DNA of 38,014 nucleotides, taken from contig JAFTDQ010000098.1 of the NCBI GenBank assembly GCA_017454075.1, positions 1 to 38,014 of the forward strand, in the 5' to 3' direction. The position numbers and the translations under genes were made by a program. The notes beneath the pieces are model-generated. The model ran no database searches. It saw only the letters and a program-made list of their open reading frames with translations, and was not told the DNA's origin. Below are positions 26,969 through 37,358 of this stretch, one piece after another; position 1 is the stretch's first letter, and the number at the start of each line of letters is the position of its first letter. The DNA is from Clostridia bacterium. GTDB taxonomy: Bacteria > Bacillota_A > Clostridia > Oscillospirales > CAG-272.

Positions 26969-26997
26969 TTGACATGATCCGGTTTTTATTGTATAAT
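26969..26997 (+). promoter_or_regulatory. consensus promoter for the second small membrane-protein gene
   Basis: TTGACA (26969-26974), 17-nt spacer, TATAAT (26992-26997). The start codon is about 140 nt downstream, so the transcript has a long leader. Confidence 0.88.
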
Positions 26998-27521: not shown

Positions 27522-27546
27522 AAATCCCCCGCGACGCGGGGGATTT
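27522..27546. terminator. bidirectional terminator between convergent operons
   Basis: An 11-bp perfect stem (27522-27532 with 27536-27546), loop of 3 nt. It begins 13 nt after the + strand stop and abuts the stop of the - strand histidinol phosphatase gene. T-rich sequence follows on the + strand, and the A-rich arm gives U on the - strand. Confidence 0.9.
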
Positions 27547-28314
27547 TCATATTTTGTCTCCGAATCGGTCAAAACCGAAGCACAGCGTCTCTTTCCTGTG
27601 GCTGTCGCTTGAAAGGATAAAGCGGCCGCCGCGCGAGCGGACGTAATCGGCGAGCGCCGGCGACGGATAAGGACTTTTCCGGCAGCCCCTTGAGATCGCG
27701 CCGGTGTTGATCTCGAATATCTGTCCCGGGCGGGCGGCGAGTATTTCGTCGACCGCCTTTTTTGCCGCCGCGACGTATCGCGGATCGTTTTCATCAAAGA
27801 GCGCTCCGCCCTCGTTGAACTTCGTTATGAGATCGAGATGCCCGATTATATCCGGGCTCATCGCGGAAAGCCGCGCGACGTTTTCGAAATAATCCTCGGC
27901 GAGCGATATAAGATCTCCGCAAAAATACTTTTCGGCGGCGTATATCAGCGTCGCGCCGTCAAGATCGACGGGTATGTATTCGTCGCCGAGGTGAAAATAG
28001 TGCACCGAACCGATGACGTAATCAAAATCCCCCGCCGGCATTCCCGAGAAAAGATCCTGTTCTATCCCGCAGAGCACGCGCATCCTTCCGGCATACTCCC
28101 GGGCGAGTGATCTGATCTCCGAAACGTATTCGCCGGCTTTGTCCCTGTCCATGCAGTACGAGGTGTCAAAATCCGTGTAAGAATGATCGGAGAAACCGAG
28201 AACCCCGACGCCGATCTCCTCCGCCCGGGCGGCGACGTCACGGGGAAGGTCGGCGCCGTCGCTGTAAACCGTATGGACGTGAAGATCTGTCAGTACGTTT
28301 CCAAAGCAGGGCAT
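27547..28314 (-). CDS. hisK: histidinol-phosphatase, PHP family
   Basis: The 255-residue PHP-fold phosphatase removes phosphate from L-histidinol phosphate. Metal-binding motifs are DLHVHTVYSDG (10-20), GFSDHSY, GIEQDLF, GSVHYFH, GHLDLI and SSDSHRKE near the C-terminus. Placement at the end of the his operon supports this over other PHP hydrolases. The start overlaps the hisIE stop by 1 nt. The type is the Bacillus-like HisK rather than the HAD-type domain fused to HisB in enterobacteria, which fits the single-domain HisB here. Confidence 0.9.
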   Translation of the reverse strand: MPCFGNVLTDLHVHTVYSDGADLPRDVAARAEEIGVGVLGFSDHSYTDFDTSYCMDRDKAGEYVSEIRSLAREYAGRMRVLCGIEQDLFSGMPAGDFDYVIGSVHYFHLGDEYIPVDLDGATLIYAAEKYFCGDLISLAEDYFENVARLSAMSPDIIGHLDLITKFNEGGALFDENDPRYVAAAKKAVDEILAARPGQIFEINTGAISRGCRKSPYPSPALADYVRSRGGRFILSSDSHRKETLCFGFDRFGDKI

Positions 28315-28982
28315 CAGGTCATTTTCTCCTGTTTGACCTTATGATCTATCACGTGCCGGGAAGCGAGCTCTTTTCTGATCTCGTCGACGGAGATGCCCAT
28401 GTCAGTCATAAGAACGAGGACGTGGTAAGCGAGATCGGCGATCTCGTAGACCGTCTCTTTTCTGTCGTCGGCTTTTCCGGCTATAATGACCTCGGTGCAT
28501 TCCTCGCCGACCTTTTTAAGAATCTTGTCACGTCCCTTTTCAAAAAGGTACGTCGTATAGGAGCCCTCGGGTCTCGTCGCGTTTCTTTCGGAAAGCAGAG
28601 CGGCGAGCCCGTCGATCGAAAAATCTCCGAGCTTATCGCTCCTGAACAGACCGTTCTCAAAGCACGATTCGCTCCCGAGATGACAGGCGGGACCGTCAGG
28701 TATCACGTCGACGAGCAGAGCGTCGAAATCGCAGTCCGCGGTCACCGAGACGACGTGCTGGTAATTCCCGCTCGTCTCTCCCTTCAGCCACAGCTCGTTT
28801 CTCGACCTGCTGAAAAAGCAGGTCAGTTCCTTTTCGAGGGTAATATCGAGGGATTCGCGGTTCATATAGGCAAGCGTCAGCACGCGCCCGGTGCGGGCGT
28901 CCCTGACTATTGCCGGAATGAGCCCGTTTTTGTCGAATCTGAGTTTTTCCTTACAGTCAAAATCAAGCATATCTGTCCTCAT
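28314..28982 (-). CDS. hisI: bifunctional phosphoribosyl-AMP cyclohydrolase / phosphoribosyl-ATP pyrophosphatase
   Basis: The 222-residue fusion (HisIE) catalyses steps 2 and 3 of histidine synthesis. The N-terminal cyclohydrolase domain (about 8-115) has VLTLAYMNRESL, LWLKGETSGNYQ, and the zinc/catalytic segment CDFDALLVDVIPDGPACHLG. The C-terminal pyrophosphatase domain (about 128-215) has GSYTTYLFEKG, KKVGEECTEVIIAGK and ETVYEIADLAYHVLVLM. ATG 28982 is chosen for its ATGA overlap with hisF; Met at residue 5 is the alternative. Confidence 0.94.
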   Translation of the reverse strand: MRTDMLDFDCKEKLRFDKNGLIPAIVRDARTGRVLTLAYMNRESLDITLEKELTCFFSRSRNELWLKGETSGNYQHVVSVTADCDFDALLVDVIPDGPACHLGSESCFENGLFRSDKLGDFSIDGLAALLSERNATRPEGSYTTYLFEKGRDKILKKVGEECTEVIIAGKADDRKETVYEIADLAYHVLVLMTDMGISVDEIRKELASRHVIDHKVKQEKMT

Positions 28983-29740
28983 ACAATCCGCGCCGGAATC
29001 CCCGCCGCGGACATTTTCTTTTTGAGTTCGGGTATCGAAACCTCGCCGTAATGGAACACCGACGCGGCAAGCCCGGCGTCCACACGCGGGAGCGCCCTGA
29101 AAAGATCTATAAAGTCCTCCGTCTTTCCGGCGCCGCCCGAGGCAATGACCGGGACGTCGACCCTGTCGCACACGGCGGAGAGCATCTCGATATCAAATCC
29201 TCCCCTGACGCCGTCGGCGTCCATCGAGTTCAGAACGACCTCCCCGGCGCCGCGCCCGACGCACCCGGCGATCCAGCCGACGGCTTCAATGCCGGTATCG
29301 ACCCTGCCGCCTTTACCGAATACCGTGAACCTTCCGCCGACGCGCTTAACATCTGCCGAAATGACGACGCACTGGCTCCCGTAGCGTTTCGCAGCCTCGG
29401 AAATGAGATCGGGGTTTCTTATAGCGCCGGAATTGACCGACACCTTGTCGGCCCCGCATCCGAGGACCGCCTCGAAATCCGCGAGCGTATTTATCCCTCC
29501 TCCGACGGTCAGGGGTATAAAGACCTTGTCGGCCGTCTCCTCGAGCACGTCGAGGAACAGGGATCTGCCCTCCGCAGACGCGGTTATATCGTAAAAAACA
29601 AGCTCATCCGCGCCTTCAGCGACGTATCTTTCGGCGAGCTCCACCGGGGAGGATACGTCACGGAGATTTTCGAAGTTCACTCCCTTGACGACTCTGCCGT
29701 TTCTGACGTCAAGGCACGGGATTATTCTTTTCGCAAGCAT
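28979..29740 (-). CDS. hisF: imidazole glycerol phosphate synthase cyclase subunit HisF
   Basis: The 253-residue TIM-barrel enzyme uses ammonia from HisH to turn PRFAR into IGP and AICAR. Catalytic aspartates lie in IIPCLDVRNGRVVKG (Asp11) and VVISADVKRVGG. Phosphate-binding loops LTVGGGI and VIASGGAG and the LNSMDADGVRGG segment are present. The gene overlaps hisA by 19 nt upstream and hisIE by 4 nt downstream. Length and motifs are normal. Confidence 0.96.
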   Translation of the reverse strand: MLAKRIIPCLDVRNGRVVKGVNFENLRDVSSPVELAERYVAEGADELVFYDITASAEGRSLFLDVLEETADKVFIPLTVGGGINTLADFEAVLGCGADKVSVNSGAIRNPDLISEAAKRYGSQCVVISADVKRVGGRFTVFGKGGRVDTGIEAVGWIAGCVGRGAGEVVLNSMDADGVRGGFDIEMLSAVCDRVDVPVIASGGAGKTEDFIDLFRALPRVDAGLAASVFHYGEVSIPELKKKMSAAGIPARIV

Positions 29741-30444
29741 GCCGCCTCCGTTGCCTCACCCACGGTGAGTGTTCCCTCGTAGTACGCTCTTCCGATGATC
29801 GCCCCGTAAACGCCGGCGCGCGCGAGCTTTATCACGTCCTCCGCGGAGCTGACGCCGCCCGAAGCTATGACGTCAAGACCCGTTTTTCCTATCCTGCTGT
29901 AAAGGCCGTGATTTGCTCCCTTCATCGCCCCGTCACGGGAGATGTCGGTGCATATGACGGTCTTTACTCCTTTTTCTTTCAGTTCGCGGCAGAAATCCTC
30001 CGCCCGGACGCCGCTCGTTTCGGTCCATCCGTTGACCGAGACAAATCCGCCGCGGGCGTCGACCGAAACGGCTATCCTGTCCCCGTAACGTCCGATCGCC
30101 GTATCGAGAAATCCGGGATCCCCGAGCGCCGCCGTCCCGAGGATCATGCGGTCGATCCCGGCCTCCGCGTATCGTTCGAGAACTTCTTCCGAGCGGATCC
30201 CTCCTCCGACCTCGCAGAACAGGCCGGTCTGTTTTTTTATTTCAGCAATTACGGGGAAATTCGGAGAAGTTCCGGTTCTCGCGCCTTCGAGGTCAACGAT
30301 ATGAAGACGACCGGCCCCTTCCTTCATAAGTCTGAGAGCCGTTTCGACGGCGCTGTCCGAATAGACCTTCATTTTCCCGTAGTCTCCGCGAAGCAGTCTT
30401 ACGACCCTTCCCCCGTAAACGTCTATTGCCGGAAAAATCAGCAT
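29722..30444 (-). CDS. hisA: ProFAR isomerase HisA
   Basis: The 240-residue TIM-barrel isomerase converts ProFAR to PRFAR. Motifs: FPAIDVYGGRVVRL (Asp8), EVGGGIRS, VSVDARGG (second catalytic Asp), TDISRDGAMKGAN and VIASGGVSS. ATG 30444 is chosen because the family begins MLIFPAID; it overlaps hisH by 7 nt. The start in the longer in-frame extension would add basic residues unlike the family. Confidence 0.95.
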   Translation of the reverse strand: MLIFPAIDVYGGRVVRLLRGDYGKMKVYSDSAVETALRLMKEGAGRLHIVDLEGARTGTSPNFPVIAEIKKQTGLFCEVGGGIRSEEVLERYAEAGIDRMILGTAALGDPGFLDTAIGRYGDRIAVSVDARGGFVSVNGWTETSGVRAEDFCRELKEKGVKTVICTDISRDGAMKGANHGLYSRIGKTGLDVIASGGVSSAEDVIKLARAGVYGAIIGRAYYEGTLTVGEATEAACLRKE

Positions 30445-31076
30445 CGTATACCTCCGATCCCGGCGGCAAAGTCGGCGAAAGCGCGAAGGATCCCGAGCCC
30501 GACGCGCCCGCTTTTTTCGGGATGGAACTGACACCCGAAAACGCTGCCGCGCCCGACGGCGGCGGTGACCTCAACGTGATAGTCTGCCGTCGCTATAACG
30601 TCGTCCCCGCAGTCCGCGCCGTAATAGGAATGAACGAAATAAACGCAATCACCGTCCGAGCTGTATTTCATCAGCGGAGAGTCTTTTTTCTTTATCTCAA
30701 GGGCGTTCCAGCCGATATGCGGGACCTTGAAATCCGTCGGTACCCTGTCCCTCAGAGGGACGACCCTGCCGCTTATCAGCCCGAGACCGCGGTGAACGCC
30801 GAATTCGAGACTTTCTTCAAGGAGCAGCTGCATCCCGAGGCATATGCCGAGCAGGGGTCTCCCCTTGCCGGCGGCGTCTTTCAGATATTCATCGAGTCCC
30901 GTCGCCCTCAGTTTTTCGGCCGCCTCGCCGAACGCGCCGACGCCCGGGAGGATGATCCCGTCGGCAGTATCGAGCGTCCCGGGATCGCCCGTCACCACGG
31001 CGTCCTCGCCGATCGCCCTGAGCGACCTGACGACCGAAAAGAGATTCCCGACTCCGTAGTCGACAACCGCGATCAT
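30438..31076 (-). CDS. hisH: imidazole glycerol phosphate synthase glutaminase subunit HisH
   Basis: The 212-residue class I glutamine amidotransferase supplies ammonia to HisF. It starts MIAVVDYGVGNLFSVVRSL, has the oxyanion/nucleophile segment PLLGICLGMQLLLEES with the catalytic Cys, PHIGWN, and the catalytic His in CQFHPEKSG. Start ATG 31076 shares one base with the hisB stop (TGATG). The position between hisB and hisA follows the usual Firmicutes order. Confidence 0.95.
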   Translation of the reverse strand: MIAVVDYGVGNLFSVVRSLRAIGEDAVVTGDPGTLDTADGIILPGVGAFGEAAEKLRATGLDEYLKDAAGKGRPLLGICLGMQLLLEESLEFGVHRGLGLISGRVVPLRDRVPTDFKVPHIGWNALEIKKKDSPLMKYSSDGDCVYFVHSYYGADCGDDVIATADYHVEVTAAVGRGSVFGCQFHPEKSGRVGLGILRAFADFAAGIGGIRC

Positions 31077-31654
31077 CAGATCACGCCCTTTGTCGAGGGG
31101 ACGTCGGAACCGGTAACCGAGCACGCCTCGGAAAGCGCGCGGGCGGCGCTTTTGAAGCAGCACTCTATGATGTGGTGGGTATTCATTCCGGAAAGCTGTC
31201 TCACGTGGAGAGTGATCGCCGCCTCACGGGCAAACGCCGTGAAGAACTCGCCGACAAGCTCGGTGTCAAAATCGCCGACGCGGCGGCACGGGAGCTCGGT
31301 CCTGACGTCTGAAAAGCCCCTCCCCGAAATATCGACGGCCGTCATCACGAGCGCCTCGTCCATCGGAAGTATCACCGAACCGTATCTTTTAATCCCGCGG
31401 CAGTCGCCGAGCGCCTCGCGGAACGCCTTCCCGAGACATATTCCGATATCCTCGGCGCTGTGGTGAAAATCCACCTCGGTGTCCCCGCTGCAGGAAAGCG
31501 TGATATCAAATCCTCCGTGCTTCGAAAAAAGCGTGAGCATATGATCGAAAAAACCGTTTCCGGTTGCGATTTCCGAAACGCCGGTACCGTCAAGCGACAG
31601 ACCGATCGCGACGTCTGTCTCCTTTGTTTTTCTCTTTATTTCCGCTTTTCTCAT
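31076..31654 (-). CDS. hisB: imidazoleglycerol-phosphate dehydratase HisB
   Basis: The 192-residue single-function enzyme converts IGP to imidazole acetol phosphate. Manganese-binding histidine motifs are NGFFDHML, VDFHHSAEDIGI and MNTHHIIECCFKS. No HAD-type phosphatase domain is fused; this is consistent with the separate PHP phosphatase at the operon's end. The start overlaps the hisC stop by 4 nt (ATGA). Confidence 0.96.
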   Translation of the reverse strand: MRKAEIKRKTKETDVAIGLSLDGTGVSEIATGNGFFDHMLTLFSKHGGFDITLSCSGDTEVDFHHSAEDIGICLGKAFREALGDCRGIKRYGSVILPMDEALVMTAVDISGRGFSDVRTELPCRRVGDFDTELVGEFFTAFAREAAITLHVRQLSGMNTHHIIECCFKSAARALSEACSVTGSDVPSTKGVI

Positions 31655-32724
31655 CTGAGTATTCCTTTCTCTTCGATTATCGCGCTGAGCGCACCGATAA
31701 GCGCGTCTACCTCTTCTTCCGAGCCGACTGTGATCCTGTTGTAGTCTCCGGTCCGTTCGCCGCCGAAATGCCGCACGAGTATCCCTTTTCTCCTGAGAGA
31801 CAGATATATCTCTTCGCCGGAGATCGAAGGATGTCTCGCAAAAACGAAATTCCCGAGCGAGTCCGTGACGTCAAACCCGGACTTTTTCATCTCCGATATG
31901 AGCCGGCCGCGGCTTCTGATTATCCGGCGACAGTTATCCGAAGTATATTCGGGATCTGAAAGAGCCCCTATCCCGGCCGCCGCCGTCATCATGCTTACGT
32001 TATAAGGATTTATCGAATTTCGTATCAGGTCAAGATCTTTTATAAGCTCCTGACATCCTATCCCGAAGCCCAGACGCGCCCCGGCCATCGACCTGGATTT
32101 TGAAAACGTTCCGGTCACGAGGACGTTGTCGAGCTCCTTCGTGAGTCCCGCGCAGCTCTCCGCTCCGAAATCAACGTACGCCTCATCGATGACGTAAAGC
32201 GATTCCGGGTGTCTCAGCGCCGCCTCCCTTATACGTTCAATCGGGGTGAATATGCCGGTCGGCGCGTTCGGATTGGCTATGAAGAACACGCATTTTTCCC
32301 CGTCGAGCATTCCGTCAGGCAGGGAAAAGTCGCTGTTCAGCGGGACCGTCCGGTAAGGAACGCCGTTCTGCTCCGCGAATATCGGATAAAAACCGTAAGT
32401 CACGTCGGGAAAGACCGCCGGCCTTTCATGACAGCAGAACGCCGCAAATGTAAAATTGAGTATCTCGTCCGATCCGTTTCCCACGGTGATACATTCCGGC
32501 GTCACGGAATACGTCCCGCCGAGCGCCTCTCGGAGGGAAAGATACGTCGGATCCGGATAAAGCATGAGCCTTTCGGCCGCGTCCGCCGCGTTTTTCACCG
32601 CCTTTTCCGAAGGAGGGTACGGGGACTCGTTTGTGTTGAGTTTTATATACCGCCGGTCCCTCGGCTGTTCTCCCGGGACGTACGAAACAAGCCCGGATTT
32701 GCGATCCGAAAGAAAACGGCTCAT
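31651..32724 (-). CDS. hisC: histidinol-phosphate aminotransferase HisC
   Basis: The 357-residue PLP-dependent class I/II aminotransferase uses imidazole acetol phosphate and glutamate. Visible are IKLNTNESPYPPSEK, GNGSDEILNFTF, IANPNAPTGIF, YVIDEAYVDF, and the PLP lysine in TFSKSRSMAGARLGFGIG. The start is taken at ATG 32724 (family-like MSRFLSDR), giving a 4-nt ATGA overlap with hisD; a longer upstream frame adds a basic tail with no support. Confidence 0.94.
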   Translation of the reverse strand: MSRFLSDRKSGLVSYVPGEQPRDRRYIKLNTNESPYPPSEKAVKNAADAAERLMLYPDPTYLSLREALGGTYSVTPECITVGNGSDEILNFTFAAFCCHERPAVFPDVTYGFYPIFAEQNGVPYRTVPLNSDFSLPDGMLDGEKCVFFIANPNAPTGIFTPIERIREAALRHPESLYVIDEAYVDFGAESCAGLTKELDNVLVTGTFSKSRSMAGARLGFGIGCQELIKDLDLIRNSINPYNVSMMTAAAGIGALSDPEYTSDNCRRIIRSRGRLISEMKKSGFDVTDSLGNFVFARHPSISGEEIYLSLRRKGILVRHFGGERTGDYNRITVGSEEEVDALIGALSAIIEEKGILR

Positions 32725-33995
32725 TTTTTCATCCTCACGGCGGCGCTTTCGGCATGAGCCCCGAGGCCTTCGCATTCCGCGAAACGCCTTACGTCGTCTC
32801 CTACCCCGAGAAACGCCTCCCTGTCAAAGAAACAGTACTGGGTCTTTTTTATAAAATCGTCTACCGACAGAGGGCTTGAAAATCTCGCCGTTCCGCTCGT
32901 CGGGAGCGTGTGGTTCGGCCCGGCCATATAGTCGCCGAGCGCTTCGGGACAATATCTGCCGAGGAACACCGATCCGGCGTTTTTAACTTTACCGAGCAGA
33001 GCGAACGGCTCTTTCACGCAGAGTTCGAGATGTTCCGGCGCGATCCTGTCGGAAACCGAAACGGCCTCCGACATGTCGCCGACGATTATAATCCTGCCGT
33101 TTTTCTCGATCGAAGCACGGGCGATTTCCTCCCTTGCGAGCCTCGGAAGCTGCTTTTCTATCTCCTCCGACACGAGTACGGCCAGCTTTTCGGAATCCGT
33201 GACCAGAACGGACATCGCGTTTCTGTCATGCTCCGCCTGAGAAAGCAGATCTGCGGCGACGGATTCGGGATCGTTGTCCCCGTCGGCTATGACGAGGATC
33301 TCGCTCGGCCCGGCTATCATGTCTATCGACACGCGGCCGAAGACCTGGCGCTTCGCCTCGGCTACAAAGGCGTTTCCGGGGCCCGTGATTTTGTCGACCG
33401 CCGGTAGGGACTCCGTCCCGAAGGCGAGGGCGGCGATCGCCTGAGCCCCGCCGACCTTGAATATCCTGTCGGCGCCGGCAACGCAGGCGGCGGCGAGCAC
33501 GTTTTTATTTACCTTGCCGTCTCGTCCGGGCGGCGTCGTTATTATTATCTCCGGACATCCGGCAATTTTTGCCGGTATCACGTTCATAAGAACGGTTGAC
33601 GGATAAGCGGCGGTGCCGCCGGGAACGTAAAGCCCCACGCGCCCGAGAGGAGTGATTTTCTGTCCGAGGACGGTCCCGCCGTTTTTCAGCTCAAAGCCCT
33701 TTCGCACCTGTTCGCTGTGAAAACGCGTTATATTTTCGGCGGCGCGGCGAAAAACGCCGAGCAGAGCGGGGTCGGCGCCGGCCATCGCTTCATCCTTTTC
33801 CTCCCGGCTGACTTCAAGTTCTTTCAGTCGGACGCCGTCGAATTTTTCGGTATAATCGCGAAGAGCTTCGTCTCCTCTCAGCGACACGTCTCTGATTATT
33901 TCCCTTACCGTTTCGGAAACATCCCCCGAGAGCGGCTGTTCTCTTCCGAAAACCGCCCGGTCGGGATCGCGCCCGTAATAAAACGTTTTTATCAT
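32721..33995 (-). CDS. hisD: histidinol dehydrogenase HisD
   Basis: The 424-residue zinc enzyme oxidises L-histidinol to L-histidine in two NAD-dependent steps. Characteristic stretches: GLYVPGGTAAYPSTVLMN, IAALAFGTESLPAVDKITGP, DLLSQAEHDRNA (zinc ligand region), IAPEHLEL and GPNHTLPTSGTARFSS. It is 16 nt after hisZG, the only gap in the structural genes, and carries its own AGGAT-type ribosome binding site. Confidence 0.96.
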   Translation of the reverse strand: MIKTFYYGRDPDRAVFGREQPLSGDVSETVREIIRDVSLRGDEALRDYTEKFDGVRLKELEVSREEKDEAMAGADPALLGVFRRAAENITRFHSEQVRKGFELKNGGTVLGQKITPLGRVGLYVPGGTAAYPSTVLMNVIPAKIAGCPEIIITTPPGRDGKVNKNVLAAACVAGADRIFKVGGAQAIAALAFGTESLPAVDKITGPGNAFVAEAKRQVFGRVSIDMIAGPSEILVIADGDNDPESVAADLLSQAEHDRNAMSVLVTDSEKLAVLVSEEIEKQLPRLAREEIARASIEKNGRIIIVGDMSEAVSVSDRIAPEHLELCVKEPFALLGKVKNAGSVFLGRYCPEALGDYMAGPNHTLPTSGTARFSSPLSVDDFIKKTQYCFFDREAFLGVGDDVRRFAECEGLGAHAESAAVRMKK

Positions 33996-34011: not shown

Positions 34012-35556
34012 TCATTTGGGACATACCGCGGCGAGCCCGTCTCGCACGGCGTCGATCTCGGCTCCCCTGAAGAGCCGGCTGGCTTTCCCGCAGATCAGGC
34101 GGGCGCTTATATCGAGGAATCTGTCGATTACTTCAAGCCCGTTCTCCCTGAGGGTAGTCCCGGTCTCAACGATGTCGACGATGACGTCGGACAGCCCAAG
34201 CAGCGGCGCGAGCTCTATCGAGCCGTTAAGCTGTACGGCGTCGATCTCCCTGCCCTTCGACGCGTAATAATCCCTTGCTATGTTGAAAAACTTTGTCGCG
34301 ACGGTGAGACGTCCCGTGCCGTCGTCCGAAAATCCCTTCGGGGCGGCCACGGCCATCGAGCATCGGCCGAGACCGAGGTCGAGCAGTTCCAGCACGTCGC
34401 TGTCATGCTCGAGCAGGACGTCCTTTCCGACGACGCCGATATCGGCGACTCCGCGCTCAACGTAAACAGCGACGTCCGACGGCTTTACCATGGAAAATCT
34501 GAGTTTTCCGTCGCCGCTGTCGAATACCAGTTTCCTGCTGTTTTTTTCATCGACCGGACAGTCAAAGCCCGCCCTGACGAAAAGATCCCTGACCTTTTCT
34601 CCGAGCCGTCCCTTCGGGAGCGCGACGCAGAGAGGTCTTTTCTCCGCGCGTTGCCCCGCGGGGCGCTCAACGGTGTCGGTGTATACGGCAAAGCCGACCG
34701 CCGAGCCGCGTTTTCCGAGCTTGTTCATAAGAAGATCGTACCGTCCGCCGCGAAGACAGGGGGCGGGAAGCCCGCGCGTCATCCCCCGGAAAACGAGACC
34801 GCTGTAATAGTCTCCGTTTCCGACGACGGACAGATCGACCGACAGTCCAACCGGGAAATCCGCGCCCGCTTTTTCCACAAGCCGGCAGAAGCCGCCGTCG
34901 TGTATACCGAACTCGGATATTATTCTTTTTATCTCAGGCAGGGAGCGCCCGGGGTCCCCCTTAACTTCCGAAAGCAGAACGAGCGGCGAAGGATCGCCTC
35001 GGCAAAGTCCCCGGAGAGCCCCCGCGTCCGTCCTTTCAAACGCTTTTATCACCTTCCCGAAATCGGCGGCAAGTACCCCCGCCGCGCGGGCGGCGTCCCG
35101 GATCAGTTCAAGACTCGATACCGCGACGACCGAGTCGTCGGAGATCAGTTTCATGCTCTCCCCGGCGAGCCGAAGGACGGAGATCACGTCGTCTTCGGTT
35201 ATGTTCCCGAAGCATTCGGCGCCAACCTGTTTTATCTCGCGGAAGCATCCCGACGTCCTGTCTTCACGGAACACGTTTTCGTCATATCTCACCCGGGCGG
35301 TTTTGCCGGGCTTAACGTCGCCGAGATCCTTTATAACGGAAAGCGTGACGTCCGGTTTCATGGCGACGAGCCGTCCGTTCACGTCGGTGAAGGTTATGAC
35401 CTGCCCCGGATCGAGAAATTCCCTGTTCCGCGCGTAGAGATCATAATCTTCGAACTTGTTCATCCTGTATCGGGAATATCCAGCCGAATCAAAAAGCATG
35501 CCCAGCCGCAGCGCGAGCGCCTCTCCGCGGCTGAGCAATCCGTCACTTATATTCAT
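34012..35556 (-). CDS. hisZG: fused ATP phosphoribosyltransferase: regulatory HisZ + catalytic HisG
   Basis: One 514-residue frame contains both subunits of the short-form ATP phosphoribosyltransferase, the first and feedback-controlled step. Residues 1 to about 295 are HisZ, a class II aaRS-like fold (FTDVNGRLVAMKPDVTLSV, RYDENVFRED, LRGGRYDLLMNKLG). A linker (about 296-308, ERPAGQRAEKRP) leads to HisG (309-510): LCVALPKGRLGEK, ADIGVVGKDVLLE, and the PRPP loop DVIVDIVETGTTLRENG (457-473). HisZ is shorter than the usual 350-400 residues. No stop or frameshift separates the domains. It overlaps the regulator by 14 nt. Confidence 0.92.
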   Translation of the reverse strand: MNISDGLLSRGEALALRLGMLFDSAGYSRYRMNKFEDYDLYARNREFLDPGQVITFTDVNGRLVAMKPDVTLSVIKDLGDVKPGKTARVRYDENVFREDRTSGCFREIKQVGAECFGNITEDDVISVLRLAGESMKLISDDSVVAVSSLELIRDAARAAGVLAADFGKVIKAFERTDAGALRGLCRGDPSPLVLLSEVKGDPGRSLPEIKRIISEFGIHDGGFCRLVEKAGADFPVGLSVDLSVVGNGDYYSGLVFRGMTRGLPAPCLRGGRYDLLMNKLGKRGSAVGFAVYTDTVERPAGQRAEKRPLCVALPKGRLGEKVRDLFVRAGFDCPVDEKNSRKLVFDSGDGKLRFSMVKPSDVAVYVERGVADIGVVGKDVLLEHDSDVLELLDLGLGRCSMAVAAPKGFSDDGTGRLTVATKFFNIARDYYASKGREIDAVQLNGSIELAPLLGLSDVIVDIVETGTTLRENGLEVIDRFLDISARLICGKASRLFRGAEIDAVRDGLAAVCPK

Positions 35557-35863
35557 CGGGATTATCTCCGTTCAGGCGGAGCACGGCGGCGAGATATCCG
35601 CCCGCTCCCGCCTTTATGCAGCGGCTTACGCGTCCGACGGTCGCCGTACTGAGGCCCAGGCGGTCGATTATATCCTTGTAGCTGTGCGCTTCGTAAAGCA
35701 TCTGCGCCGCGATTATTCTGTTAGAGAGAGACCTTATCTCCTGAGGGGTACAGATATCAGCGAGAAAAGCGCGGAACTCGTCTTCCCCTTTCAGGACAGC
35801 AAGCGCTCTCACGATGTTTTCTATATGCTCTTTATGTTCTTCTTCGGAAATAAAGGTGTTCAT
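35543..35863 (-). CDS. TrpR-family transcriptional regulator (YerC/HisR type)
   Basis: The 106-residue helical protein matches the YerC/YecD branch of TrpR-like regulators: ENIVRALAVLKGEDEFRAFLADICT, PQEIRSLSNRIIAAQML, and the helix-turn-helix SYKDIIDRLGLSTATVGRVSRCIKAG. It is the first gene of the his operon with a good AAGGAG ribosome binding site, and the operon promoter carries a 16-bp palindrome. Comparative work has linked this type of regulator to histidine synthesis in Gram-positive bacteria (recalled, not checked), so a histidine-responsive repressor is likely. Ligand binding is inferred. Confidence 0.85.
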   Translation of the reverse strand: MNTFISEEEHKEHIENIVRALAVLKGEDEFRAFLADICTPQEIRSLSNRIIAAQMLYEAHSYKDIIDRLGLSTATVGRVSRCIKAGAGGYLAAVLRLNGDNPDEYK

Positions 35864-35891: not shown

Positions 35892-35920
35892 ATTATACCG
35901 CTTTAGCGCGCTAAAGTCAA
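35892..35920 (-). promoter_or_regulatory. promoter of the histidine operon
   Basis: Read on the - strand: TTGACT (35920-35915), 17-nt spacer, TATAAT (35897-35892). The palindromic operator fills the spacer. The leader to the regulator's start is only about 25 nt, so there is no space for a T-box or attenuator. Confidence 0.85.
35901..35916. promoter_or_regulatory. palindromic operator, likely bound by the TrpR-family regulator
   Basis: CTTTAGCGCGCTAAAG is a perfect 16-bp palindrome located between the -10 and -35 boxes and overlapping the last two bases of the -35 box. A dimeric HTH regulator bound here would block RNA polymerase. The autogenous assignment is inferred from the adjacent gene. 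Confidence 0.75.
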
Positions 35921-35975: not shown

Positions 35976-36506
35976 TCATGTTATGCTGATATACGGCTCT
36001 CTTTTGTCGAGCCGGCATATGACGGAGGCGAGCGGTACGGCGAGGAAAGACAGAATGAGATTCCCGACCATGTGCATGGCGTCGTAAGGCAGTCCGGAAA
36101 GGATCCAAAGAAACATGAGCTTCAGGTTGCCGCCGAAGAACACTATGCACTGATAAGGTGCGTAGAGCGTCCCGTAAAGCATCCCGTGAAGCCCGCACAC
36201 CAGACTGACGAGAGCAACCGCCTTCGCCTTTTTCATTTTCCTCGGAAGTATCAGAACGGCGAGGCACACGGGCGCCCATATATAAAGATACGGGAACCAC
36301 CATATGCCGAATCCGGCGTAAAGCCCTTCGAGGAAAACAAAAACGTAGGTAGGGATGAGCGCCTTCGCCCCGTAAACGAGCGTCATCGTCGCGATGAAAA
36401 GCGCGATCGGATGAAAGTTCGGCACGACCTCGATCTGTTTCAGAACGAACATCATCGAACCGAATATCGCGAAGAGAACGATCTCCCTGACCGTTAGTTT
36501 TTTCAC
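35976..36506 (-). CDS. ECF transporter S component, CblT-like candidate
   Basis: The 176-residue, strongly hydrophobic protein has about five to six membrane segments and a typical S-component opening (KKLTVREIVLFAIFGSMMFV). It includes FHPIALFIATMTLVYGAKAL, YAGFGIWWFPYLYIWAPV and GLPYDAMHMVGNLILSF. S components bind a vitamin and dock to a shared EcfAA'T module, which is not in this window. The start is GTG 36506, one base after the DUF4430 gene, with AAAGG upstream. The cobalamin-riboswitch-like leader suggests a corrinoid or precursor as the substrate. Confidence 0.8.
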   Translation of the reverse strand: MKKLTVREIVLFAIFGSMMFVLKQIEVVPNFHPIALFIATMTLVYGAKALIPTYVFVFLEGLYAGFGIWWFPYLYIWAPVCLAVLILPRKMKKAKAVALVSLVCGLHGMLYGTLYAPYQCIVFFGGNLKLMFLWILSGLPYDAMHMVGNLILSFLAVPLASVICRLDKREPYISIT

Positions 36507-36507
36507 G

Positions 36508-36903
36508 TCAGCCTTTCGTGTAGGTTATCTCATACGAGTCGCCGTCCTTAATAGCCGTCTCGGCAACACCGGTATTGAGATATTCGCCTCCTTTATAGAA
36601 GGCCCAGTAGGCGTGGTCGGTGTTCCAGTCGGCAGCAACGCCCAGCACCTTGTCGACGTAGAACATCGTTCCATCAACGTGTCCCTCGATCAGTTTTTCC
36701 TGCTCGAGCGCGCCGCGGAGAAATTCTTCGTCCGTCCTGATTGTATAGGAAGTCTCCTTCCCCTCCTTGTCGGTCACCTTGACGGTGATCGTCTTTTCTC
36801 CCGGCGTCCCTTTTTTGCCGCATGAGCTCATCGACGTGACACAGACCGCAGACAGTATCATTACAAGAGCAAGCAAAAGGGACAATGATCTTTTAGCTTC
36901 CAT
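36508..36903 (-). CDS. DUF4430 (transcobalamin-like) lipoprotein
   Basis: The 131-residue protein starts at ATG 36903 (AAAGG upstream) with a lipoprotein signal ending in SMSSC (Cys28). A single DUF4430 domain follows, with ITVKVTDKEGKETSYTI, EQEKLIEGH, and the typical WAFYKGGEYLNTGVAETAI-KDGDSYEITYT end. DUF4430 resembles the C-terminal domain of animal transcobalamin/intrinsic factor. With the S component and riboswitch it is a plausible surface corrinoid-binding protein, but direct binding is not shown. Confidence 0.83.
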   Translation of the reverse strand: MEAKRSLSLLLALVMILSAVCVTSMSSCGKKGTPGEKTITVKVTDKEGKETSYTIRTDEEFLRGALEQEKLIEGHVDGTMFYVDKVLGVAADWNTDHAYWAFYKGGEYLNTGVAETAIKDGDSYEITYTKG

Positions 36904-36974
36904 TGTTTTTATACCTTTCGTAATAGGATTTTTTATCGCCCGTGCGCGCATTGCCTTTCGGCCCAGGCGCTCGC

Positions 36975-37140
36975 TGAATGCACGGCGGGGAGAAGTCTTC
37001 CGGCTTGTCGGCGCTCCGCCGGGCGTCTTCTCGCTTTCGCAATGACGTGCCGCCTGCGGTGACGGCTGCCCGGTGTATTCTGCCGCTTACGGCGACGTGC
37101 TCGTCGGGGCGTTTCACCCCGTTCCTTGTTCCCCTCACGG
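36975..37140 (-). ncRNA. cobalamin riboswitch (probable)
   Basis: On the - strand the leader holds GGTGAAACGCC, then GCACGTCGCCGTAAGCGG, GAAAGCGAGAAGACGCC, and near the 3' side ACAAGCCGGAAGACTTC (B12-box-like, cf. AAGCCxGGAxACC) followed by CCCCGCC. Order and spacing match the AdoCbl/cobalamin riboswitch consensus. No T-rich terminator follows in the leader up to 36904, so control may be at translation. A covariance-model search was not possible here. Confidence 0.82.
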
Positions 37141-37149
37141 AACCGAATA

Positions 37150-37178
37150 ATTATACCACTGCCGCAAGGTAAATTCAA
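37150..37178 (-). promoter_or_regulatory. promoter of the riboswitch operon
   Basis: On the - strand TTGAAT (37178-37173), 17-nt spacer, TATAAT (37155-37150), placed just upstream of the riboswitch-like leader. Confidence 0.82.
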
Positions 37179-37329: not shown

Positions 37330-37358
37330 TTGACAGAGGAAGGCTTTTTGTGTATAAT
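37330..37358 (+). promoter_or_regulatory. consensus promoter of pckG
   Basis: TTGACA (37330-37335), 17-nt spacer, TATAAT (37353-37358), with a leader of about 55 nt before the start codon. Confidence 0.9.

Follow-up and report, generated by a model that had tools for sequence, protein, structure and literature searches.

Short-form ATP phosphoribosyltransferase (ATP-PRT) is built from two polypeptides, HisZ and the short HisG (HisGS), in a 4+4 hetero-octamer; it is represented by the enzymes of Lactococcus lactis (1z7m/1z7n), Psychrobacter arcticus (5m8h), Acinetobacter baumannii (8oy0) and Thermotoga maritima (1usy). The long form, HisGL, combines regulation and catalysis in one chain, with the catalytic domain first and the regulatory domain C-terminal (passages of PMC10795190). 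Fused hisZ-hisG is mentioned among fused his genes, in a variety of genomes, by Ashniev et al. 2022 (PMC9413887); the portions of that text available give no architecture, count or origin for it, and the word "hisZ" is absent from the text of PMC1963479, which is among the two sources cited there on fusions. Searches of the open-licence literature brought up no paper dealing with how this fusion is structured or whether it arose repeatedly. The fusion is a known, widespread architecture already in print, and a single case is no surprise. Here we describe one such gene, hisZG, at positions 34012-35556 (minus strand) of a 38,014-nucleotide contig of a Clostridia bacterium (JAFTDQ010000098.1; the whole contig is referred to as the window). 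Like HisGL, its product unites regulator and catalyst; unlike HisGL, it has a regulator resembling histidyl-tRNA synthetase (HisRS), and this comes first. It has the two folds of the short-form enzymes, aligned catalytic arginines, a HisRS-like pocket and a his operon context in common with them, and differs in being one polypeptide. A single fusion is ordinary for clostridia; the repeated placement of HisG where HisZ has its C-terminal tail is the part worth keeping.

Architecture of the fused protein

The gene and its parts are as follows (pLDDT, predicted local distance difference test).

34012..35556, minus strand: hisZG, fused ATP phosphoribosyltransferase, 514 aa; single open frame with PF13393 and PF01634
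34666..35556, minus strand: HisZ core, residues ~1-297, without the C-terminal HisRS-like domain
34636..34665, minus strand: linker, residues ~298-307; pLDDT <50 at 300-305, HisG similarity from 308
34012..34635, minus strand: short-form HisG, residues ~308-514, and stop codon

The initial annotation had proposed that HisZ and HisG are joined in one polypeptide, regulatory domain first, by a linker of about 13 residues after a HisZ part of about 295. Indeed, the frame opens with ATG and runs uninterrupted for 514 codons, and PF13393 (tRNA-synt_His/HisZ; residues 12-296, E 3.3e-33, 115.7 bits against a Pfam cut-off of 25) precedes PF01634 (HisG; residues 358-504, E 1.3e-48, 165.3 bits against 25.5), these being the only Pfam matches on the protein at E 0.001. 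The linker measures 10-13 residues depending on where its borders are placed, the HisZ part measures ~297, and residues 300-305, inside the linker, are the sole stretch of the predicted structure with pLDDT below 50. The 1:1 ratio of HisZ to HisG that had been proposed follows from the sequence. The HisG half matched the NCBIfam model TIGR00070 hisG at residues 310-488 (190 bits, cut-off 75.75) and, at ~207 residues with no C-terminal HisGL-type regulatory domain in the Pfam scan, is of the HisGS type. The HisZ half matched the fold of solved HisZ and has the HisRS-like core.

The HisZ part had also been called shorter than usual. This stands against the average HisZ length of 377 +/- 39 reported in a part of PMC8305728, but not against every described HisZ: according to passages of PMC10795190 the C-terminal domain is present in HisZ of P. 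arcticus and A. baumannii and, as in hisZG, absent from that of L. lactis and T. maritima. The T. maritima HisZ chain in 1usy has 275 residues.

Histidyl-tRNA synthetase shares its fold with the HisZ half and was rejected as its identity. TIGR00442 scored 66 bits against a cut-off of 286.75, and there is no C-terminal anticodon-binding domain, the chain continuing as HisG from ~308. Good superpositions to HisRS stopped at residue 303; a single row, 4yrg, reached 363, at a root-mean-square deviation (rmsd) of 19 Å. In the alignment G246 occupies the position of a HisRS arginine that we take to be catalytic.

Two separate genes might have been joined by an assembly or sequencing artefact, and the window comes without read data. 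A scan of genome contigs with the single protein returned no relative, while a profile scan with alignment A1 matched at least 596 stretches; among the best 80 of these loci, HisZ and HisG lay in one frame at 46, from independent assemblies, and in two adjacent genes at 34. Separate genes with a stop at the junction in the closest relatives had been proposed as the finding that would count against the fusion. In a protein search, however, the three nearest relatives (99, 86 and 74% identity) had the same uninterrupted fused architecture, and split genes occurred in more distant ones. An assembly error is unlikely because these relatives are fused alike, and an artefact of either kind is scarcely credible. 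The domain search over relatives that had been suggested gave the same picture, with both Pfam domains in all 120 homologues listed (the best 120 of 4727 matches). One 657-aa homologue (P0077) carries the HisZ end and linker twice ahead of HisG, perhaps through an assembly artefact of its own.

Occurrence and probable repeated origin of the fusion

In all, 200 loci were collected; two (L156, L199) had no HisZ in reach and stand outside every count. The remainder comprised 64 fused and 134 separate loci, counts that contain near-copies (60 and 132 at 99% identity; L004 and L081 are the same place). A class-level sample covered 291 genomes from the class to which G002 belongs, a genome titled a Clostridia bacterium that carries L004. 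Matches were found in 249, weak HisRS-like ones included, and 90 loci were taken, with HisZ in reach at 89 of them: 17 fused, 67 with a separate long HisZ and 5 with a separate short one. Long frames were chosen on purpose, so this reads only as at least 17 of 291. In the phylum-wide sample HisG was found in 320 of 398 genomes, and among 30 loci taken HisZ was in reach in 29 and fused in 1. Fusions are thus common in certain groups of clostridia, but across the phylum they make up the minority.

The fused and separate proteins differed in the HisZ tail. The HisRS-like C-terminal domain was found in 0/64 fused loci and in 119/134 separate HisZ, the other 15 being short. A pattern-based measure of spacing worked in 50 of the 64 fused loci, and an alignment-based measure covers all 64. 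The evidence for a HisRS-like tail consists of the superposition of a single predicted model and a profile alignment reaching as far as residue 368 of the 3od1 chain and residue 361 of the 5m8h chain. Assignment of the tail of separate HisZ to a named Pfam domain was rejected: besides PF13393, no family appeared in more than 2 of 23 long HisZ, with E no better than 0.007. Foldseek alignments of the fusion model to 3od1, 8oy0 HisZ and 1wu7 extended over 368-405 columns but had an rmsd of 16-18 Å, and so were not taken as a sign of a kept tail in the fusion.

On a tree built from HisG alone (201 rows, made up of 198 loci, the window, P0003 and P0004), 18 changes between the fused and separate states were needed, 7 of them forced by starred branches. 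The tree of HisZ core plus HisG needed 15 (9 forced), and an 88-row tree under a mixture model, obtained by quick search without bootstrap, needed 15 (6 forced). The 88-row tree left out P0003, rows close to those kept, and five fused loci whose HisZ hits were short or odd (L051, L053, L054, L055, L058). On this tree the approximately unbiased (AU) test rejected the grouping of the fused proteins in one clade (33 fused rows, labelled before the tree was made; p-AU 4.75e-63); for a 26-row subset picked after the tree had been seen, p was 3.73e-06. Separate losses of the tail accompanying fusion numbered 15, 13, 10 and 6 at support thresholds of 0, 80, 90 and 95 in the 88 rows, and 15, 15 and 10 at thresholds of 0, 80 and 95 in the 201 rows. 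These counts use a midpoint root and assume that the C-terminal domain is never regained; if it cannot be, 6 to 15 separate fusions are implied. The trees are gene trees, not species trees; a FastTree warning pointed to long branches that meet at the window, and letter make-up was uneven in many rows.

These results argue, with fair confidence on our part, that the HisZ-HisG fusion arose repeatedly by convergent replacement: in six lineages or more, and perhaps 10-15, HisG took the place of the HisZ tail with a linker of no more than 25 residues. Adjacent hisZ and hisG would have been joined in frame with loss of the HisRS-like C-terminal domain, placing HisG directly after the HisZ core, and this apparently happened several times.

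The fusion could instead go back to a single ancient event in clostridia, with the genes separated again afterwards in many lineages. Parsimony counts cannot separate gain from loss, and the short separate HisZ (15/134), which could be intermediates or later splits, together with locus L021, would suit such a history. In L021 hisZ and hisG share a frame interrupted by a single TGA, and hisG starts after a gap of 9 nt; this near-fusion state may precede or follow fusion. A single origin is nevertheless improbable in our judgement: the 33 fused rows do not form one clade, and, with the tail distributed as above, every split to a long HisZ would need a homologous domain brought back.

Repeated replacement also has a structural corollary. 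The recurrent fusions join core directly to HisG through such short linkers, which suggests that in the assembled enzyme the HisZ core ends near where HisG begins, and that the tail either obstructs the joining or becomes dispensable. The fusion set is in effect a natural experiment on which part of HisZ is needed, the C-terminal domain having been dispensed with in every fusion examined; whether it is dispensable is directly testable in the solved two-chain systems.

Several loci stood apart. A second fused group (L084, L111, L113-L121), with frames of 546-619 codons, is distant kin of the window's type, and L112 and L124/L125 look like further separate fused ones. Fusions were also present in a record titled Enterococcus sp. 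CU9D (L048) and in a metagenome-assembled genome (MAG) titled Spirochaetales (L017), the latter placed together with the window by the 88-row tree (support of 95 in SH-aLRT, the Shimodaira-Hasegawa-like approximate likelihood-ratio test); transfer or a mislabelled bin is possible. A MAG titled Candidatus Methanocorpusculum equi (L076) carries clostridial-type hisZ and hisG, probably on a mis-binned contig.

Predicted activity and histidine inhibition

The HisG half has arginines, R317 and R341, that align with R32 and R56 of P. arcticus, as expected of HisGS (for the role of these residues, see passages of PMC9734150). Arginine occupied both positions in 67/67 fused rows; in the separate rows it occupied the R317 position in 125/134 and the R341 position in 134/134. 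In the HisZ half T71, R97, Q110, E114, Y251 and Y273 were nearly fixed in the fused rows; we take these to be the residues of the histidine pocket, from alignment to HisRS. No second HisG was found in 7/7 fused genomes searched whole.

The statement in the initial annotation that short-form HisG needs HisZ for activity does not hold for P. arcticus, whose HisGS, according to parts of PMC9734150, is active alone and histidine-insensitive; HisZ activates it and bears the histidine site. Since HisZ has both roles there, fusion would keep the enzyme permanently activated and open to inhibition. Four fused chains would form a HisZ tetramer with two HisG dimers on its flanks, in the geometry of the 4+4 hetero-octamer, and histidine bound in the HisRS-like pocket of the HisZ half would inhibit the HisG half, either in its own chain or in an adjacent one.

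By sequence and structure model, hisZG is one open frame with both predicted folds; its catalytic and ligand-pocket positions are conserved, and it follows hisR in a full his operon. It very likely encodes a working ATP phosphoribosyltransferase of four fused chains, in place of four plus four, that would be inhibited by histidine. Several points weigh against this. TIGR00443 hisZ matched the HisZ half at residues 10-296 with 118.5 bits. Because this score, although the highest of any HisZ/HisS model, is well under the curated cut-off of 271.65, the half is a divergent HisZ by that model; it is predicted to work like a HisZ half but is no member by that cut-off. There is no solved structure of a fusion among the listed structure matches, no chain of which spans both halves, and the way a single-chain model places its domains says nothing about assembly. 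The fused genomes searched for a second HisG are of untold completeness.

Fusion may alternatively have altered regulation, leaving the HisZ half a relic, or tuned to weak inhibition or a new oligomer state. The divergence from TIGR00443 and the missing C-terminal domain would fit this; we nonetheless regard it as rather unlikely, given that the pocket positions are nearly fixed across the fused rows. Moreover, passages of PMC10795190 describe the two-chain L. lactis and T. maritima enzymes as likewise without the C-terminal domain and give 1usy as the histidine-bound T. maritima complex. The set of fusions provides a naturally occurring one-chain form, with its stoichiometry fixed, of an allosteric enzyme that has been studied intensively, and is handy for kinetics and structure.

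The his operon and neighbouring features

By domain matches, hisZG is the second gene of a complete ten-gene his operon, hisR-ZG-D-C-B-H-A-F-IE-J, whose other features are listed in order of transcription.

35892..35920, minus strand: operon promoter TTGACT-17-TATAAT upstream of hisR; 11/12 matches to consensus, which is a match and not proof
35901..35916, no strand: perfect 16-bp palindrome CTTTAGCGCGCTAAAG, likely HisR operator, overlapping the promoter; the sole CTTTAN6TAAAG match in the window (0.01 expected)
35543..35863, minus strand: hisR (YerC/YecD, TrpR-like); TIGR02531, 68.8 bits (cut-off 42.2); 14 bases of its frame overlap the start of hisZG
32721..33995, minus strand: hisD; PF00815, TIGR00069
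31651..32775, minus strand: hisC; best model TIGR01141, 274 bits, just under the cut-off of 276.55
31076..31654, minus strand: hisB (dehydratase); PF00475, NCBIfam HisB
30438..31163, minus strand: hisH; TIGR01855 at residues 31-231; frame as listed, true start probably further in
29722..30534, minus strand: hisA; TIGR00007 at residues 33-260; frame as listed
28979..29740, minus strand: hisF; TIGR00735
28314..29171, minus strand: hisIE; NF002747 at residues 74-273; frame as listed
27547..28314, minus strand: HisJ-type histidinol phosphatase (PHP); TIGR01856, 104.4 bits against 90.2
27522..27546, minus strand: terminator-like hairpin directly after the phosphatase gene, the last of the operon; 11-pair stem

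The palindrome agrees with the TTTAN6TAAA core of the HisR consensus cacTTTAnnnnnnTAAAgtg given in a part of PMC9413887, and the locus thus pairs a TIGR02531 protein with a palindromic putative operator in the his promoter, as expected of a HisR (YerC/YecD) regulon. The same source, in part, describes Ruminococcus gnavus HisR as requiring L-histidine to bind its DNA site. From the fit to the consensus and this histidine-dependent binding, we infer that the operon is probably under double histidine control, through predicted HisR regulation and putative feedback on the fused enzyme.

Plus-strand promoter matches of 12/12 (TTGACA-17-TATAAT) flank the his region on both sides, at 26969-26997 and 37330-37358. 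Upstream of the operon on the minus strand, a cobalamin riboswitch (RF00174, 51.4 bits, 36973-37175) precedes a DUF4430 open reading frame (36508-36951) and a hydrophobic-looking frame of 176 aa (35976-36506) that has no Pfam or NCBIfam match; these two frames may be a pair for cobalamin uptake next to the his genes.
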